Shown: positions 54,224 through 63,609 of the stretch, one piece after another | Layout of the letters: every line of letters begins with the position of its first letter | Position numbering within the stretch: the first letter of the stretch is position 1 | Assembly (NCBI GenBank): GCA_019638115.1 | Contig: JAHBUK010000004.1 | Location: 1-64,000, forward strand | DNA length: 64,000 bases | Direction of reading: 5' to 3' | From: Flavobacteriales bacterium | Lineage (GTDB): Bacteria > Bacteroidota > Bacteroidia > Flavobacteriales_F > PHOS-HE28 | Program-made: the position numbers and the translations under genes | Notes under the pieces: generated by a model | What the model was told of the DNA's origin: nothing | The model's input: the letters and a program-made list of their open reading frames with translations, nothing else | Database searches by the model: none

Positions 54224-56674
54224 TCACACCCGCCTATACCCCTTCTCCACCTTCTTCCCCCTCACCTTCTCCATTTCGCGGCGCGCTGTGGCCTCGTCGG
54301 CGAATTGTTTGATGAGTGATTGGCCGGCGGTACCGATGCGGCCGTAGCGCACGGTGTAAGCAGCGCCTTCCACCTTCACCTCCCAGAACTTGCTGCTGCC
54401 ATCCTCCACGCATTCGTAGCGCTCGAAGGACGCGTCGTTGGTAGAGGCGATCGGCTCCGGCGGAGGTTCAACCACGCTGGGTGAGGGCTCCGAAGCATCT
54501 GGTGCAACAGTGATCGGCTTCGGCTCTGGAACAGGCAAGGGCTCCACAACCACCTCCGGCGCTGCTTCCTCTTTTCCTGCGAGCACGCGCTCCACACGCG
54601 CCATCAGCTGATCCGGATCATTGAACCAGTCCTTGGCGAGGATGCTGATCACCTCCCAACCGAATGCGCGCAGCAAGGCCGGACGCTGGCAGTACTGCTC
54701 CAGCACATCGTCGTTGCGGTAGTGAACATCGGAATCGATGAGGATGCCGAGGCGGTAACCCTTGCCATCGCTGGCACGCACGGCAAGGTCGCAGCGGAAG
54801 TAGGAACTGCCCACGTTGCGGTCCACGTGATGGCCCTGGGACTGGAGCCGTTCCGCGATGCGCACGGTAACGGCGGCCACCTGATCGCTGCTGTGCTCTG
54901 CGCCGCGTAACGAGAGGCTATCGAGCACCGTGGACGCACCATCCTGTTCACCGGCGGACAACCGTTCGGCGTATTGCAGGAAACGGCGCAGGTAGTTGGC
55001 GCCCTCGTTGTGTTCGTTCTTGATGTCGTTGGCGGTGATGCTGCTCACCACGGCCATATGTCGCTTCGCACGTGAGAAGATCACGTTCAGGCGCTTCTCC
55101 CCGCCCCTCCGGTTGATCGGACCGAAGTTCATGAGCATGCGTCCGTTGGCGTTGGGCGCGTAGCACACGCTCATGATGATCACATCGCGCTCATCGCCCT
55201 GCACGTTCTCCAGGTTCTTGATGAAGAGGCCCACGAACTGGTCGTCCTCCACGCGCTGGTATTCCTCCTCCAACCTAGCCTCGAAGGCCTTGTCCGCAGC
55301 GGCCAATTCCTGCAAGGCCTCTTCAATGGCCGACTGCTGCTCGATGGAGAAGGCCACGACGCCGATGCTGCGCCCTTGACCGAGCATCTGCTGAATGAGC
55401 AGTGCGATGTACCGCGCCTCCTGACTGTTTCGGCGCTCGTGGTACACGCCGTTGCGCACATGGTGGAAACTGATCGGACGATCGGAAAGCGCGCTCGCAT
55501 GCTGCACGGCTTCGGCGGCATCCGCCACGCTGATGGGCGTTTGCTGGGCTTGCAGCAGTTGCTGGTCAGGGATGGTGAGCAGGTCACGGCCATAGAACGC
55601 CGCATTGCTGAAGCTGATGAGGCTCTCGTGGCGGCTGCGGTAATGCCAGCCGAGCATCACGCCCGGAAGCTTGCGCACGCCCTGGCTCAGCAGGCTGTCC
55701 GCATCAAGGGCGATGCCGATGCGTTCCTCGGTTGCGTCCTCTTCCTCGTCCACGTCGCCGCTGGTGGTGTTGAAGAAATTAGTGGGCGGCATCTGCATCT
55801 CGTCGCCCACAATGATGGTCTGCGCGGTGCGGAACAAGGCGGGCACCCCTTCCTCCAAGGTGATCTGGCTGGCCTCGTCGTAGATGACCACATCGAAGAG
55901 CTTGGTGTCCAATGGCAGGATGTCCGACACGCTCTGCGGGCTCATGAGCCAAACGGGCTTCAGGCCCATCACCACCGGCCCGCTCTCCTTCCCGATCAGC
56001 TCGCGCACGCTCTTGTAGCGCATCGATTTGCCGAACTCGTTCTCGAGGATGCGGCGACCCACGGTCCACTTCTTCTTGATGGCGCGCTCCTCCGGCCCCA
56101 TGCCCGATACGCTCGTATCGGAGATCCGCACGTGCTGCTTGAAGCGGGCACGCACCGATGAACGGATCATGTCCACGTTCACATCGAGGTAGCGTTTCTC
56201 CAGTGCGTTGAGCTGCTTCACGCTATGCAGGATCGCCAAGCCATCGAGGCGATCGAAGAGCCGATCATTGCGATACACCTCGCGCAGCGACTTGTAGGCC
56301 GTGAGGTAGGCCATGGCATCGGCACTGATGCGCTGCTTGGTGACAAAAGCATGCAAGCGTGGTTCCATAGCGGCGATCTCGCGCAGGTAGGGCACCAGGC
56401 CACTGAAGCCGTTCAGCGCGGCTTTCACCTCCTGCATCCAGCGCTCCACGCCGTTCAGCGGAAGTTCATCACAGTAAGCGTTCAGTAAGCGTGCCTGTGC
56501 GGTGAAGCGATCCAGGTCGGCGCCGAGTTCCACCAGCTCAGTGATCTCCGATGCCGGCATGGCGAGAAGTGCGTTCCACTTCGCATCGCGCTGACGATCA
56601 CGCAGCGCACGCACCAATTCGCGGCTGAGGGCATTTTCCTCCAAGCCATAACGATCGTGCATGCCTTGCTCCAA
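54224..56674 (-). CDS. C-terminal fragment of the DUF4011/AAA helicase (helicase, Vsr-like nuclease, WGR)
   Basis: About 816 residues from a TTG at 56674, or 812 from ATG 56662. Neither start has a visible ribosome-binding site, so independent translation is doubtful. Carries DEAS, helicase motifs IV-VI, the Vsr/DUF559-like segment, a Pro/Glu/Val-rich linker ('VVEPLPVPEPKPITV', 'SPSVVEPPPEPI') and the WGR domain. Confidence 0.75.
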   Translation of the reverse strand: MEQGMHDRYGLEENALSRELVRALRDRQRDAKWNALLAMPASEITELVELGADLDRFTAQARLLNAYCDELPLNGVERWMQEVKAALNGFSGLVPYLREIAAMEPRLHAFVTKQRISADAMAYLTAYKSLREVYRNDRLFDRLDGLAILHSVKQLNALEKRYLDVNVDMIRSSVRARFKQHVRISDTSVSGMGPEERAIKKKWTVGRRILENEFGKSMRYKSVRELIGKESGPVVMGLKPVWLMSPQSVSDILPLDTKLFDVVIYDEASQITLEEGVPALFRTAQTIIVGDEMQMPPTNFFNTTSGDVDEEEDATEERIGIALDADSLLSQGVRKLPGVMLGWHYRSRHESLISFSNAAFYGRDLLTIPDQQLLQAQQTPISVADAAEAVQHASALSDRPISFHHVRNGVYHERRNSQEARYIALLIQQMLGQGRSIGVVAFSIEQQSAIEEALQELAAADKAFEARLEEEYQRVEDDQFVGLFIKNLENVQGDERDVIIMSVCYAPNANGRMLMNFGPINRRGGEKRLNVIFSRAKRHMAVVSSITANDIKNEHNEGANYLRRFLQYAERLSAGEQDGASTVLDSLSLRGAEHSSDQVAAVTVRIAERLQSQGHHVDRNVGSSYFRCDLAVRASDGKGYRLGILIDSDVHYRNDDVLEQYCQRPALLRAFGWEVISILAKDWFNDPDQLMARVERVLAGKEEAAPEVVVEPLPVPEPKPITVAPDASEPSPSVVEPPPEPIASTNDASFERYECVEDGSSKFWEVKVEGAAYTVRYGRIGTAGQSLIKQFADEATARREMEKVRGKKVEKGYRRV

Positions 56675-56695
56675 TGCAGTGAGCTTATCCAGTGC

Positions 56696-59653
56696 CTAAT
56701 GCTCGGCACACAGGTCGTCGAGCAGGCGCGCGATCTCCGGCGTTACCTGGTGCTTGCTGAGGTCGTAACTGTTCGCCACCATCGCCTTGATGCGGCGGTA
56801 GGTGCCGTTGAGGAACTTGAAGAAACCCTTGTTCACACGCTGCCATTGCTCGCGCGCGGCTTGCGCATCCACCGCGTTGGGCTTCTGCTTCCAATGCACC
56901 GTGGCTTTGGCTGCCTTCGCAACCGACTTCTTCTGCTTTTCGATGGCTTCCACATCGGCATCGTAGCGACGCGCTTCCTCATGCCTGCTCTCGAAGATGC
57001 CCAGCTTGTCGCGCGCAGCCACCGGCCCCAGTTGGCGCGCTCCACCGGCCAGCATGACCAGCTCGCCCAGCGTGGGGCGCATACCTGGCGGCAGGTCGAT
57101 GGCATCCAGTTGTTCGCTGATGCGCTCCCACACCGGTGAGGCTTTCTCCCATACTTCAGCAATGCGACCGAAGGGCTGATCATCGTTCAGGAGCTGTGCT
57201 TGCACGGCGATCAACGGATGCTCCGCCGCGATGAGCGAACGACCGAGGTCCTTCAGAGCTACGGATAGCTCGCGCACCAAACGCTCCACGGACAACCACG
57301 AAGCATGATCGGGGATGCGCTCCAAAGCGACGGCATCCGCTTCGTGCAGGCTGTCGTCGCGCTGCGCGATCAAGCGGTCCAACAAGTTATGAAGCGGTAT
57401 TCCCGTGGAAGCGTGGGCCTCGCGCATCCGCTGGTGGAAATGCTCCAAGCGACCGATCTCCTCCTCCATTCGGCCGATCACCGAGGCACGCTCCCGCGCG
57501 ATGGAGGCCTCGTCCATGGTGCTCTTCAGGAAGGTCTCGTAAGTCTGCTTCAGGTCCTGGATGAAGGTCTTCTTGTCCGCCTGCGAGTCGTGTACGCGGC
57601 AGCATACCTCATCGAGCTCGCGCTGCTTCAAGCGGTGGAAGACGACATCGAGCGCCGCACGTTTCTCGCAGACGAAGAGCACCTTCTTGCCCGCACCCAC
57701 ATAGTAGGCGATGAGGTTGGTGATGGTCTGCGACTTGCCCGTGCCCGGCGGCCCTTGGATGATGTAGCTCCCACCACCCGCAGCCTGTTCGATGGCGCGC
57801 GTTTGCGTGGGATCGGCCTGGATGATCGGGAAACGCTCAGCGAGTGGAGCACGCGTTGGAGCCTCCTCCTGCAACGGTCGCGGCTGGTCGCTGAAAAGCA
57901 TATTGAACACATCGTCCTTGGCGTTGGCTTCGATGATGTGATCGTAGTCTTGCACCAAGGACATGCGCCGCGCATTGAAGTTGCCCAACGTGACGTTGCA
58001 GAGGTCCACTTCCCAGTGATAAGGATTCGCGTCGCCCTCTTCCACCGTGTTGTAGAAGCTGCGGCCGCCATTGCCCTTGGCATGATCGACACCAGGACGG
58101 ATGTCCTCGTTGATGATGTACTCGAAGGTGCTTGCGGCGGGACGCACCTTGCGCTGGTACAGTTGCAGGCCCAGTGGCGTGAAGCCATCGCTGCCGTAGG
58201 AGTAACTGAAGCTGCGCGGATCCAGACCGCTCGCATGCCTTCGTGTACGACGCAGTGTGCGCGAGAACGCTTGTCGTGCAGCGGCATGCACCAGTTCGAT
58301 GCGTGGCTTGTCCACCAGATCGAGCTCGATCTCCGATCCGCTGCTCTTCGCCTGCTGGCGTATGCTGCTTACGAGGTCCTCCACACTGGATTCCTCCAGA
58401 TCGATCATGTCCGGCAATTCGATGCCGTAGAGCTCGCGGAAATAGTGGACCAGCACCGGGTTCACCTCGGCTTCCGCAGTCGGACATTCCAGCACGTACT
58501 GGTCCTTCACGCCTTTGCGCTTCACCAGTTCCACGGGCAGCAGGAGCAGCGGTGTGCTGATCTTCTCGTTGCCGTAGTCCTTGAAGTTGGTCCACCGCAG
58601 GAAGGCGATCACGAGCCGAAGTGGATCCACGCCGTATTCGTTCACCGCTTTGCGGGCCTCGCTGCGCACCTTGTCCAAGCGCGCGGGCAAGGTTGGGCGC
58701 TCCTTCAGATCGAGGTAACCGGTGAGGACCAAACGTTTCTTGCCGATCACCTTGTCGCGCACCGAACGGCTCCACGTGATCAGCGAGGCCGGATCGATGT
58801 TCTTGTGGTCCAGCAGAGGCGGCACGCTGGCCACGGTGAGGTTCACGAAGCCCTCGGTATCCCTGAAATAGAGCAGCCTGTTGCGCCGGCTCAGATCGAA
58901 AAGTCGCGCCTTGAGCTTGGCCAAGATCCAATTGTCGCGCGAGCTGAGGTCCTGTTGGCGGAACCCGGCCGTGCGCGTAAGGTCCATGTAGTTATCCGGG
59001 TCGTATTGCCTGAAATTCTTCAGCTTGGCAATGACCTCATCAAGACTGCGTGGACGGTCCTCACGATAGAGCTGCGTGCATTCCGTGATCACGCCCACCA
59101 GTGTGGGATGCACCTGATCGTTCAGCGCGAAGAGGTTGTCGCGGCGCTCAACGAAGGTCTCAAGGTCCTCGGGGTCGTTGAAGTCCAGGCCGAACGCAAG
59201 GCTGGCCAGGATGAGCCCGCAGATGTGGATATCGGTGATCGGATCATGATGGCCGATCTCCAGGTCCCACGCTGCATAACCCACCACGTACTTCGGCGTG
59301 CTGAGGGTCTCGCCTTCCGCGCGGATCAGCGCATTGCGATAGAGGCGATGATCATCGTCGTCAACTTCGGTCACCTCACGTGTGACCACCACCGGGCCTT
59401 CCTGTTTGGGCTTCGCGAAGAGGTGGCGTGCGTTGGAGATCGTGCCACTGGTGCGACCAAGGTCCAGATAGAGGCGCCCTTCCTCCACCCGTACGGCATC
59501 CGCGTTGCGCAAGCGAGCCACACGTCCTTCGATGTGGACGCCGTGCAGCGCCTCGAGCAAGGGCATGGCCACCGCGATCACGTCATCCGTGCGCAGGCCG
59601 CCCTGTTCATCGCAGTACCGCAGGAAGCCTCTGAAGTCCAGCACCTCGTTCAT
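56696..59653 (-). CDS. N-terminal fragment of the DUF4011/AAA helicase
   Basis: 985 residues before the TAG. Contains Walker A but no Walker B. If translated alone it would probably be inactive as an ATPase. The sequence just before the stop ('RLLDDLCAEH') continues smoothly into 'ALDKLTALEQGMHDRYG' after it, with no shift of frame. The start ATG 59653 is well placed 3 bp after the M48 gene stop. Confidence 0.8.
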   Translation of the reverse strand: MNEVLDFRGFLRYCDEQGGLRTDDVIAVAMPLLEALHGVHIEGRVARLRNADAVRVEEGRLYLDLGRTSGTISNARHLFAKPKQEGPVVVTREVTEVDDDDHRLYRNALIRAEGETLSTPKYVVGYAAWDLEIGHHDPITDIHICGLILASLAFGLDFNDPEDLETFVERRDNLFALNDQVHPTLVGVITECTQLYREDRPRSLDEVIAKLKNFRQYDPDNYMDLTRTAGFRQQDLSSRDNWILAKLKARLFDLSRRNRLLYFRDTEGFVNLTVASVPPLLDHKNIDPASLITWSRSVRDKVIGKKRLVLTGYLDLKERPTLPARLDKVRSEARKAVNEYGVDPLRLVIAFLRWTNFKDYGNEKISTPLLLLPVELVKRKGVKDQYVLECPTAEAEVNPVLVHYFRELYGIELPDMIDLEESSVEDLVSSIRQQAKSSGSEIELDLVDKPRIELVHAAARQAFSRTLRRTRRHASGLDPRSFSYSYGSDGFTPLGLQLYQRKVRPAASTFEYIINEDIRPGVDHAKGNGGRSFYNTVEEGDANPYHWEVDLCNVTLGNFNARRMSLVQDYDHIIEANAKDDVFNMLFSDQPRPLQEEAPTRAPLAERFPIIQADPTQTRAIEQAAGGGSYIIQGPPGTGKSQTITNLIAYYVGAGKKVLFVCEKRAALDVVFHRLKQRELDEVCCRVHDSQADKKTFIQDLKQTYETFLKSTMDEASIARERASVIGRMEEEIGRLEHFHQRMREAHASTGIPLHNLLDRLIAQRDDSLHEADAVALERIPDHASWLSVERLVRELSVALKDLGRSLIAAEHPLIAVQAQLLNDDQPFGRIAEVWEKASPVWERISEQLDAIDLPPGMRPTLGELVMLAGGARQLGPVAARDKLGIFESRHEEARRYDADVEAIEKQKKSVAKAAKATVHWKQKPNAVDAQAAREQWQRVNKGFFKFLNGTYRRIKAMVANSYDLSKHQVTPEIARLLDDLCAEH

Positions 59654-59656
59654 CGC

Positions 59657-60874
59657 TTATTCTTCTTGCAGGCTTTCCTCACCCACGTCCTTCATCTTCG
59701 AGAGGCTTTCCATGGCGCGGTCCTTCAACTGCTTCAGTTCACGTGCGCCCAGCTTCAGTTCCTTCCGCAGTATGGCATCGAACTCCGTGGTCAAGCCCAG
59801 CAGTTCCGCCAGTTCCAGCATATGGCCCATAGGCACTTCCTCTTGTTCGCTGTCGCAACGGGCCACATCGAGCAGCACATAGCAGAGGTAATTGCGCGTG
59901 TCCTTGGCGGCGTTCTTCACTTGCTCACGCAGGGCATCGGTCACGTAGGCATCGGGCCTGCGCTTCAGCTCAGGGAAATACGATCGGCACAAGGCGCCCA
60001 CTGCCGTACTGAAGATCCAGCCGGGCTTCACCGCCAACAGCAACACGTCCTGCGTGAGCGCCTGCAGCTCCTTCTGCCGGAAGAGATCCAGGTTGTTGAT
60101 GTCCAATGGCCCACGGATCAAGCGCTCGATGCGCTCGGTGCTGGCAACCGGATCGTTGTGCCAGTAGTGCAGCGCCAGGCAGCGCAGGTAGTTCTCGGGA
60201 TGCGTGGCGGCCTCACTGCCTTCGTTCGCGGCGGTCACCACTTCTTCGGCCTGCTGCACATAGCTGGTGGTGTTCACCTGCGCCAAGCCCGTGTGCAGCT
60301 TGATCAGGCAACTGAGCACGGCTTCAACATCTTGCGCGGCCAGCATGGCGCCGCGATCGCAGAACAGCTCCATGTAAAGGCTGTAGAGGCGCGCGGTCTC
60401 GACATGCACATCCTCACTGCGCTCATCGTTCGCAATGGCATAGACCACCCGGTTGGTGATCTCATGCTCGCCGCCATCCAAGGCGTAGAAGAGGTAGTGC
60501 GCCAACTCGTGACCCAGCAAGGCGAGCAGTTCCTTCTCGGTGAGCAATTCCATCAAGCGGCCACTGAGCACGATGTGCGCTTCCTTGCCGAGGATGGAGA
60601 TGCCGGCGTTCAACTGGGTGGTATTCTGCTCCTGATAGAGCGTCACCTCCGCATCGATGTTCAGTGCTTTCACCGCCTGTGCAGCCGATGCGTAAGCCGT
60701 GGCATAGGTGGCCGGATCGAGTCGATAGGTGTTCTTGAGCAGGGCCGTGCGATGCGCCTTCGCCTGCTCCTCCTTCACCTGCTGCTCGCTGAACCACTTC
60801 CACGTGCGCTCGCGCAACTTGAAGTGATCGCGCAGTTGAACGTGGAACGGGAAGGGTGAAAGGACGGCAGGCAT
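59657..60874 (-). CDS. M48-type zinc metallopeptidase-like protein
   Basis: Protein of 405 residues. 'LLALLGHELAHYLFYA' contains HExxH (122-126), with 'MELFCDRGAML' downstream providing the likely third zinc ligand Glu, so an active gluzincin is plausible. There is no signal peptide or membrane helix, unlike HtpX or Ste24, so it should be cytoplasmic. The C-terminal 150 residues are helical. The stop is 3 bp before the ATG of the helicase gene; the pair looks like one operon. The ending 'LKDRAMESLSKMKDVGEESLQEE' is a charged helix. Confidence 0.8.
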   Translation of the reverse strand: MPAVLSPFPFHVQLRDHFKLRERTWKWFSEQQVKEEQAKAHRTALLKNTYRLDPATYATAYASAAQAVKALNIDAEVTLYQEQNTTQLNAGISILGKEAHIVLSGRLMELLTEKELLALLGHELAHYLFYALDGGEHEITNRVVYAIANDERSEDVHVETARLYSLYMELFCDRGAMLAAQDVEAVLSCLIKLHTGLAQVNTTSYVQQAEEVVTAANEGSEAATHPENYLRCLALHYWHNDPVASTERIERLIRGPLDINNLDLFRQKELQALTQDVLLLAVKPGWIFSTAVGALCRSYFPELKRRPDAYVTDALREQVKNAAKDTRNYLCYVLLDVARCDSEQEEVPMGHMLELAELLGLTTEFDAILRKELKLGARELKQLKDRAMESLSKMKDVGEESLQEE

Positions 60875-60925: not shown

Positions 60926-61100
60926 AAAGAAGCCCGGCTCATCACCAGGCTTCCCATTTGCTCATTTTCCGAACGGTCCTACCCCCGCACCAGCTTCTTA
61001 TACTTCAGGCGCTTCGGTACGATGTCCCCCACGCGCTTCTTGTAGTTCTCTGAAATGGTCGCGAAGCCGCTCCGGACCAGTACACCTTGCTGTCGCCCTC
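60926..61100 (-). pseudogene. Decayed duplicate of the ettA 3' end and its terminator
   Basis: Matches 61857-62040: the terminator hairpin, then 23 codons identical in protein to the end of EttA (ENYKKRVGDIVPKRLKYKKLV and stop). Further in, homology to the ettA codons continues ('AGTACACCTTGCT(G/A)TCGCCCTC') but with small indels that break the frame. The copied hairpin has one mismatch (CCAGGC for CCGGGC). Confidence 0.85.
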
Positions 61101-61141: not shown

Positions 61142-61600
61142 CTATCGTTCACCCGCCAACCGAAGAGCCTTTTCCTCCAGATCAGAGGAGATCCGGAAGC
61201 CCACACTTTTGAGATCGCTGAGAACAGGCTCCAATGCGGGGATCAAGCTTTGGGTCTTTGCCTTTAGCAGCACGCCTATCGTTCCTGTATGCGGTATCTC
61301 CAGGTCGGTGGCCAAGCGACGAGCGGCAAGATCATCGAGGATCACAACGCTGCGTTCTGTTTCCATGGCCAAGGCTATGGCACTCGCCTCACCACCATCC
61401 ACGAGATCCATAAAACGTGCGACCAGCTTCTCATCGATCGGATCCTTGAGTACAACCCAAACAGGAAGAGGCAGACCGAACTCTTGTGCCACTATGGAAG
61501 TGGTTGTGATCTGCCCATACACATGCTTGAGCAGCTCCAAGTGCCCAGCGTTGGTAAGCGTGATGAGGCAACTGCTGTCGGAAATGATGACCTCAGGCAT
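61142..61600 (-). CDS. DUF3368/PIN-like toxin
   Basis: Protein of 152 residues. PIN-type acidic residues are visible: 'IISDSSCLITL' (Asp8), 'VDGGEASAIALAME' (Glu) and 'VILDDLAARRLA' (Asp-Asp). This is the usual pattern of DUF3368 toxins, predicted RNases. The ATG at 61600 overlaps the antitoxin gene end by 8 nt. Between here and the M48 gene lies the ettA duplicate. Confidence 0.8.
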   Translation of the reverse strand: MPEVIISDSSCLITLTNAGHLELLKHVYGQITTTSIVAQEFGLPLPVWVVLKDPIDEKLVARFMDLVDGGEASAIALAMETERSVVILDDLAARRLATDLEIPHTGTIGVLLKAKTQSLIPALEPVLSDLKSVGFRISSDLEEKALRLAGER

Positions 61601-61823
61601 TCCGCAGGTCCTGCTCAAGGTCCGTTGCTGGGTAATTGAATACGGATACGCCGTACTTACCCAACCGCTCCATGAAGGCACGCTTGTCCAGACCTGCGAA
61701 CGCCGCAGCCTTACCCATGGCCAATTGGCCGCGGTCATAAAGTTGCGCAGCGAGCATCATGCGCAACTCTTGTAGGTCGACCTCCACTGAATCAGGGATC
61801 TCCAGAATTAGCTTCTTGGACAT
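61593..61823 (-). CDS. UPF0175 family antitoxin
   Basis: Protein of 76 residues; 'LAAQLYDRGQLAMGKAAAFAGLDKRAFMERLGKYGV' (residues about 24-59) is the UPF0175 pattern, an HTH-type DNA-binding element found next to DUF3368 toxins. Overlap with the toxin start supports coexpression. An ettA terminator lies just upstream, so the pair likely has its own promoter. Confidence 0.82.
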   Translation of the reverse strand: MSKKLILEIPDSVEVDLQELRMMLAAQLYDRGQLAMGKAAAFAGLDKRAFMERLGKYGVSVFNYPATDLEQDLRNA

Positions 61824-61852: not shown

Positions 61853-61883
61853 CAACAAGAAAGCCCGGCTCATCACCGGGCTT
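61853..61883 (-). terminator. ettA terminator
   Basis: AAGCCCGG pairs with CCGGGCTT (61861-61868 with 61876-61883), followed on the minus strand by TCTTGTTG. It lies about 35 bp after the ettA stop; the mismatched copy at 60930-60952 follows the toxin gene. Confidence 0.75.
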
Positions 61884-61917
61884 CCCATTTGCTTATCGTC
61901 CGATCATCCGATCAGTC

Positions 61918-63609
61918 CTACCCCCGCACCAGCTTCTTGTACTTCAGGCGCTTCGGTACGATGTCGCCCACGCGCTTCTTGTAGTTCTCCTCGTAGTCGC
62001 TGAAGCCGCCCTCGAACCAGTACACCTTGCTATCGCCCTCGAAGGCGAGGATGTGGGTGCAGACGCGGTCCATGAACCAGCGGTCGTGGCTGATGATGAC
62101 CGCGCAGCCGCTGTAGTCCTGGATGGCTTCCTCCAAGGCCCGGAGCGTGTTCACGTCCAGATCGTTGGTGGGTTCGTCAAGGAGGAGCACGTTGCTGCTC
62201 TGCTTCACGGTCATGGCCAGGTGCAGGCGGTTGCGTTCACCTCCGGAGAGGATGCCCACCTTCTTGTTCTGGTCGGTGCCGCTGAAGTTGAAGCGGCTCA
62301 GGTAGGCGCGTGAGTTCATCACCACGTTGCCGAAGGTGATGTTCTCCAGACCTCCTGTGAGCACCTCGTACACGGTCTTGTCCGGGTGAAGGTCCTTGTG
62401 GCTCTGGTCCACGTAAGCCACTTGCACGGTCTCGCCGATGGTTATGGTACCACTATCGGCGGGCTCCTGCCCCATGACCATGCGGAAGAGCGTGGTCTTA
62501 CCAGCACCGTTGGGACCGATGATGCCCACGATGCCGGCGGGCGGAAGCGCGAAGCTGAGGTCATCGATCAGCAGGCGGTCGCCAAAGCCTTTGCTCACGT
62601 TCTTGAACTCGATCACCTTGTCGCCCAGACGGGGTCCGTTGGGGATGAAGATCTCCAGCTTGGCTTCCTTCTCCTTCACGCTCTCGCCCTGCATTTTCTC
62701 GTAGTTGGCGAGACGGGCCTTGCTCTTGGTGCGGCGGGCGCTGGCATTGCTGCGCACCCACTCCAATTCCTGCTTCAGCACACGCTGGCGCTTGCTCTCC
62801 TGCTTCTCCTCCTGCGCCAGTCGGGCGGTCTTCTGCTCCAGCCAGTTGGTGTAGTTGCCCTTGTAGGGAATGCCCTCGCCGCGGTCCAACTCCAGGATCC
62901 AGCCGGCCACATTGTCCAGGAAGTAACGGTCGTGGGTGATGGCGATGACCGTGCCCTTGTAAGCGGCCAAGTGCTGCTCCAGCCAGGCCACGCTCTCGGC
63001 GTCAAGGTGGTTGGTGGGTTCGTCCAGCAGCAGGATGTCGGGGCTTTGCAGCAGCAGGCGGCACAGGGCCACGCGGCGGCGCTCACCACCGGAGAGCACG
63101 CTGATCTTCTGATCGGGTTCGGGGCAGCGCAGGGCGTCCATGGCGATGTCCAGCTTCTGGTCGATCTCCCAAGCACCCACCGCCTCGATCTTGTCCTGCA
63201 GCACACCCTGACGTGCGATGAGCTTGTCCATCTTGTCCGGGTCGTTCAGGATGTCCTCGTCGGCGAACTTGTTGTTCACGTCCTCATACTCCTTCAGCAG
63301 GTCCATGATGGGCTGCACGCCTTCGCGCACGATCTCGATCACGGTCTTGCTTTCGTCCAGATCGGGTTCCTGCTCCAGGTGGCCGATGGTGTAGCCCGGG
63401 GTGAGATGCACATCACCATCGAAGTTCTTGTCCTTGCCCGCGATAATGCGCATGAGCGTGGACTTACCGGAGCCGTTAAGACCGAGGATGCCGATCTTGG
63501 CGCCGTAGTAGAAGCCCAGGTAGATGTCGTTGAGGATCTTCTTTCCGGAAGGCAGGGTCTTGCCCACCTTCACCATGTTGTAAATGATCTGCCTGCCTTC
63601 TTCAGCCAT
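61918..63609 (-). CDS. ettA: Energy-dependent translational throttle protein EttA (ABC-F)
   Basis: Protein of 563 residues. Two ABC domains with Walker A at 43-51 (GLNGSGKST) and near 357 (GPNGAGKTT), each with LSGGE signature ('SVLSGGERRRVAL', 'GILSGGERNRLHL') and 'LLLDEPTNHLDAES' / 'LLLDEPTNDLDVNT'. The P-site tRNA-interaction linker ('RQRVLKQELEWVRSNASARRTKSKARL', residues about 270-296) and the EttA-type 'arm' insertion near 95-140 are present. It sits in the ribosomal E site and gates the first elongation cycles. The 3' end is duplicated at 60926-61100. Confidence 0.93.
   Translation of the reverse strand: MAEEGRQIIYNMVKVGKTLPSGKKILNDIYLGFYYGAKIGILGLNGSGKSTLMRIIAGKDKNFDGDVHLTPGYTIGHLEQEPDLDESKTVIEIVREGVQPIMDLLKEYEDVNNKFADEDILNDPDKMDKLIARQGVLQDKIEAVGAWEIDQKLDIAMDALRCPEPDQKISVLSGGERRRVALCRLLLQSPDILLLDEPTNHLDAESVAWLEQHLAAYKGTVIAITHDRYFLDNVAGWILELDRGEGIPYKGNYTNWLEQKTARLAQEEKQESKRQRVLKQELEWVRSNASARRTKSKARLANYEKMQGESVKEKEAKLEIFIPNGPRLGDKVIEFKNVSKGFGDRLLIDDLSFALPPAGIVGIIGPNGAGKTTLFRMVMGQEPADSGTITIGETVQVAYVDQSHKDLHPDKTVYEVLTGGLENITFGNVVMNSRAYLSRFNFSGTDQNKKVGILSGGERNRLHLAMTVKQSSNVLLLDEPTNDLDVNTLRALEEAIQDYSGCAVIISHDRWFMDRVCTHILAFEGDSKVYWFEGGFSDYEENYKKRVGDIVPKRLKYKKLVRG

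Follow-up and report, generated by a model that had tools for sequence, protein, structure and literature searches.

The window analysed here is a 64,000-nucleotide stretch of DNA from a Flavobacteriales bacterium, and on its minus strand two adjoining genes encode a soluble M48-type metallopeptidase of 405 amino acids (59657..60874) and a large helicase. The helicase gene consists of a 5′ part of 985 codons (56696..59653), which runs up to a premature in-frame TAG at codon 986 (56696..56698), and a 3′ part of 823 codons (54224..56695) in the same frame. As the initial annotation had stated, the stop codon of the peptidase lies 3 bp from the helicase ATG at 59653, a gap so short that there is no space for a separate helicase promoter. 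The peptidase combines the features expected of the M48 family: an HExxH zinc motif (HELAH, residues 122-126; 60497..60511), a downstream Glu ligand within the third zinc ligand region (ELFCD, residues 169-173; 60356..60370), and a match to Peptidase_M48 (PF01435, 3.8e-9) of 37.1 bits against a Pfam cut-off of 20.3. Both motifs, the second as E-L-x-[CAS]-D, are intact in all 17 family members described below. The SprT-like family (PF10263) also matches the protein over its cut-off (1.7e-6, 28.3 bits), and a fold search returned weak matches at best, the nearest being ZMPSTE24, selecase, and HtpX, which is consistent with M48 peptidases and gluzincins. The C-terminal helical region (approximate limits 59750..60022) is TerB-like, as it is the part that aligns to a region of a fused homologue (L164, see below) where TerB (PF05099) matches at 2.8e-4, below the Pfam cut-off; in the window's peptidase itself, Pfam gave no TerB match.

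The helicase had been annotated as one DUF4011/AAA/Vsr-like/WGR gene, and while its domain content holds, 54224-59653 is not a single open gene. DUF4011 (58445..58906; PF13195, 63.1 bits) and AAA_11 with the Walker A sequence GPPGTGKS (57440..57814) lie in the 5′ part, and the remaining SF1 core, represented by AAA_12 (55040..55669; PF13087, 1.4e-17), REase_MTES_1575, i.e., the Vsr/REase-like domain (54587..54862), and WGR (54230..54409; PF05406, 1.5e-14) lie in the 3′ part, all over the Pfam cut-off. All 16 peptidase-linked helicases retain intact Walker A, Walker B, and motif VI sequences, and motif III was present in the searched form in 12 of them. WGR, a nucleic-acid-binding domain, forms the C-terminal end of the protein in the window and at L160, L015, and L010, while none was found by Pfam in the L163 protein; the linker that precedes it is Pro/Glu-rich and unconserved in length and sequence.

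The first 217 residues of the helicase (59003..59653) had no Pfam match, and profile-profile comparison was used instead. Aligned with hhalign to 24 Ser/Thr kinases, this domain scored 97.0% (E 1e-10) over 165 C-lobe columns, compared to 0.1-0.4% for shuffled, reversed, and unrelated controls, and kinase columns 103-274, i.e., the C-lobe, were the only part aligned. The helix-F Asp/Gly and helix-H/I Arg typical of this lobe are represented by D141, G146, and R200, which are invariant in the 16 helicases. Sub-threshold PDB profile matches were for the most part kinases as well, and kinases made up all of the 50 best PDB matches listed by Foldseek for an AF2 model of low confidence (pLDDT 51.5). 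The N-lobe, HRDxK..N, and a conserved DFG are all absent from the domain, and with the catalytic motifs missing, an active kinase is ruled out. By these profile and fold comparisons, residues 1-217 are a predicted pseudokinase that resembles the kinase C-lobe and is catalytically dead.

The peptidase and the helicase form a unit. A search across 84,980 species genomes with the M48 sequence as query recovered five relatives, in metagenome-assembled genomes (MAGs) of three Flavobacteriales, one Lentisphaerales, and one Bacteroidetes, and the helicase was immediately downstream in all five. On closer sampling, 4 of 45 genomes from the window's genus had the pair, as did six from a second flavobacterial genus (5 of the 200 sampled and one from a phylum sample) and four more from the phylum of the Lentisphaerales MAG. 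Including the window, there are 16 adjacent pairs, spread over the two flavobacterial genera, the Bacteroidetes MAG, the Lentisphaerales MAG, and the four further genomes of its phylum, always in the same gene order and with a gap of -11 to +3 bp. Presence and absence are shared, too. Within the window's genus, profiles of the pseudokinase domain and of the M48 protein matched an identical set of four genomes. In the 396-genome phylum sample, a DUF4011-type helicase match was found in 57 genomes but spanned the C-terminal half from the start in only three, and the strong M48 matches fell in the same three genomes. Neither the family's peptidase nor its close helicase was found without the other in the sampled genomes; two remote M48 matches that lack an adjoining helicase (G226, 43.7 bits; G682, 40 bits) lie far outside the family. 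Pairwise distances of the peptidases and of the helicases were closely correlated (r = 0.993 over 66 comparisons, the values of which are not independent). Among 20 other DUF4011 helicases, none had a neighbouring M48 gene and none had the pseudokinase, and the M48-linked helicases formed one clade against these 20 (support 0.996), together with a natural fusion of the two proteins. This fusion (G814; L164:4269-9977) is a single open frame of 1902 amino acids in the order M48, TerB-like, DUF4011, SF1 helicase, and MTES_1575, with the peptidase motifs HEFGH and ELTAD, and neither pseudokinase nor WGR was detected in it. The neighbourhood survey that had been proposed for the M48 linkage thus came out in favour of a genuine module, with 16 adjacent pairs, one fusion, and empty sites.

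The empty sites come from the second flavobacterial genus, where the pair lies at five loci inside an operon that runs from nrtR and prs through NADAR, macro, Tpt1, and ADP-ribosylglycohydrolase genes to NAMPT. Among 14 genomes of this genus with a close nrtR homologue, nrtR and prs are spaced by about 77 bp in 12, and the remaining two contain the pair. At occupied sites, it starts 9-15 bp past the nrtR stop, and the usual nrtR-prs spacer follows the helicase. Between prs and NAMPT, the set of NADAR, macro, Tpt1/KptA, and ADP-ribosylglycohydrolase genes varies by genome (L053, L054, L015, and L016). Elsewhere the pair has other neighbours: in L056 it is flanked by gpsA and nadD and the NAD genes are absent, and in the window's genus it lies downstream of ettA in the window, L006, and L008, whose contigs reach far enough. 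The empty sites and the absence of the NAD genes at other loci rule out a functional tie to NAD metabolism and indicate that the NAD operon is an insertion site rather than a conserved partner. Because of the empty nrtR-prs sites and the placement in L056, we conclude that the pair is a discrete, mobile cassette. No relatives of the M48 protein were found in plasmid records, phage records, or IMG/VR, nor of the pseudokinase domain in plasmids, where the helicase search gave remote DUF4011 proteins only. No recognisable defence islands were found around the loci.

We also compared the helicase with known systems. The initial annotation had tied the helicase-Vsr architecture to defence, and this was borne out, as the DUF4011 class includes the named anti-phage proteins PDC-S37 and Hhe (PADLOC) and ProA and Hhe (NCBIfam). 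DUF4011, SF1 helicase, and MTES_1575 are joined in one polypeptide in L160, L163, L015, and L010, and are split by the TAG in the window. The PDC-S37 profile matched both halves of the window's helicase (263.6 and 453.1 bits), whereas the scores of the halves against Hhe (NF042953; 141.6 and 337.3 bits) and ProA (NF058533; 253.5 and 458.3 bits) were below the curated cut-offs of 2000 and 1500, respectively. The family thus shares with Hhe, ProA, and PDC-S37 the DUF4011 and/or SF1 core and the MTES_1575 REase-like region, and it differs from them in having a partner gene for an M48 peptidase, an N-terminus that resembles a kinase C-lobe, usually a WGR domain, and a degenerate nuclease motif. 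The last point departs from the Vsr-like nuclease that had been annotated. In the window, the canonical motif IDLAV...IECDG reads CDLAV...ILIDSD, and throughout the M48-linked clade the catalytic-type Glu of IECDG is lost (17 of 17 proteins), while the Asp of IDLAV is lost in 6 of 17. The canonical motif is present in many, not all, members of the superfamily: the 20 unlinked DUF4011 helicases kept the Asp in every case and the Glu in 13, so the loss of the Glu (7 of 20) is not unique to the M48-linked clade, and it may not amount to nuclease inactivity.

With the ATPase and peptidase intact and the nuclease decayed, the pair is most simply read as a helicase serving as sensor and gate and a peptidase serving as effector. 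We hypothesize, with a probability of about 45%, that the pair is a mobile surveillance module in which the helicase senses abnormal nucleic acid and gates an M48 peptidase effector. In such a module, the SF1, Upf1-like helicase would recognise nucleic acid in an abnormal state (DNA that is invading or damaged, or RNA), hydrolyse ATP, and then activate or position the peptidase by direct contact, and the activated peptidase would cut phage or host proteins, taking the place that a nuclease has in related DUF4011 proteins. Because of the fusion and the strict co-occurrence, we infer that the two proteins form a physical complex; the direction of control and the substrate of the peptidase are likewise inferred. 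Several points speak against this reading: the loci lie in no recognisable defence island, the scores fall short of the Hhe and ProA cut-offs, the Glu is also lost in some unlinked helicases, and the SprT-like match would fit crosslink repair. The pair is best read as a two-gene form of the DUF4011 helicase class (Hhe/ProA/PDC-S37), with a peptidase instead of a nuclease as the likely effector, and an immunity or anti-phage role is plausible. In the window genome the helicase carries a premature stop, so there the module is probably inactive or recently inactivated. A more specific proposal, which we put forward tentatively, is an uncharacterised kind of two-component immunity in prokaryotes: a pseudokinase-helicase whose nuclease is disarmed would act as the sensor and control a soluble M48-TerB peptidase, and proteolysis would halt the phage or the infected cell.

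Two published systems offer partial parallels. Hachiman HamAB is a two-gene system of a helicase sensor and a separate effector, the nuclease HamA (PMC12278908); the likeness is a working analogy with no homology claimed, as the candidate effector here is a peptidase. The RRDM island of EPEC is a functional anti-phage island that includes a predicted M48 zinc metallopeptidase (PMC12255303); this gene is linked to a Type I R-M and DarTG and not to a DUF4011 helicase, and we liken the two by description, not by sequence. If the protease-effector reading is true, a helicase-nuclease defence class would gain a branch with a protease as effector, and the natural fusion, a compact form suited to biochemistry, would show that both parts work together. 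The pseudokinase on the helicase and the decayed nuclease site also provide concrete mutants for testing. We found no description of the M48-helicase pair in the literature searched, the coverage of which was incomplete.

Control could also run in the opposite direction, as the initial annotation had suggested, with the peptidase cleaving the helicase after a trigger and thereby activating or removing it, e.g., at the junction of pseudokinase and core or in the linker before WGR. The strict adjacency and the fusion in one genome would fit such processing, and the pseudokinase might serve for inhibition or docking. However, a conserved cleavage site was not identified, that linker is conserved in neither length nor sequence, the peptidase would have to act in cis in the fusion protein, and the degenerate nuclease is better suited to a helicase that gates a peptidase effector, so we regard processing of the helicase as unlikely.

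A DNA-repair unit appears similarly improbable. Here, the helicase/WGR protein would locate DNA that is blocked or broken, and proteins stuck on this DNA would be digested by the M48/SprT-like peptidase, in a bacterial counterpart of DNA-protein crosslink repair by SPRTN/Wss1. WGR domains are known from PARP DNA-damage proteins, the SprT-like Pfam match exceeds its cut-off, and a DNA-protein-crosslink protease (6mdw) is among the weak fold matches; the peptidase thus resembles the SPRTN/Wss1-type crosslink proteases in its SprT-like zinc peptidase signature and in a possible joint action with a helicase. It differs from them in that its M48 Pfam score exceeds the SprT-like score and in that the folds match only weakly and in part. 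Moreover, the patchy occurrence (4 of 45 genomes of the genus, 3 of 396 of the phylum sample) and the cassette-like mobility would be unusual in housekeeping repair, and the helicase is related to proteins named as anti-phage.

More doubtful than either of these is that the window holds a decaying pseudogene and that no mechanism operates in this genome. The TAG parts Walker A from Walker B, which lie on opposite sides of it, and all three same-genus relatives (L006, L007, and L008) have a single intact helicase frame (1809, 1809, and 1808 amino acids), with GAA in L007 and GAT in L008 at the position of the stop. An alternative code with TAG as a sense codon is ruled out, as the neighbouring ettA uses TAG as its stop. 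A second family member, the Lentisphaerales helicase L009, has an in-frame TAA just after 10852, with flanks in one frame and at a site that differs from that in the window; the two stops may reflect recurrent inactivation, or a sequence error in either. Against long-standing decay, dN/dS between the window and L007 is about 0.11 overall and about 0.13 downstream of the stop, which places any loss in the recent past, and the TAG may be read through, may leave a split protein that still works, or may be an error in the sequence. Decay at this locus would also leave the family unexplained, and it is compatible with the other readings. That an unrelated peptidase gene and helicase gene abut by chance is barely credible, given that the adjacency is conserved in 16 loci, the two proteins are fused in one genome, their phylogenies match, they are present or absent together, and an empty site was found.

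On its upstream side, the M48 gene starts 55 bp past an ettA-like terminator repeat. This repeat is a copy of the ettA 3′ end and terminator (60930..61100, minus strand) that is duplicated at 61858-62040, with 85% identity over 181 aligned columns. Between the two copies lies a UPF0175-DUF3368 (PIN) toxin-antitoxin pair on the minus strand (61593-61823 and ~61142-61600), and a related PIN gene and a further ettA-end remnant occupy the same position in G005 (L127). Given these copies, remnants, and PIN genes, the 3′ end of ettA appears to be a hotspot for insertions.
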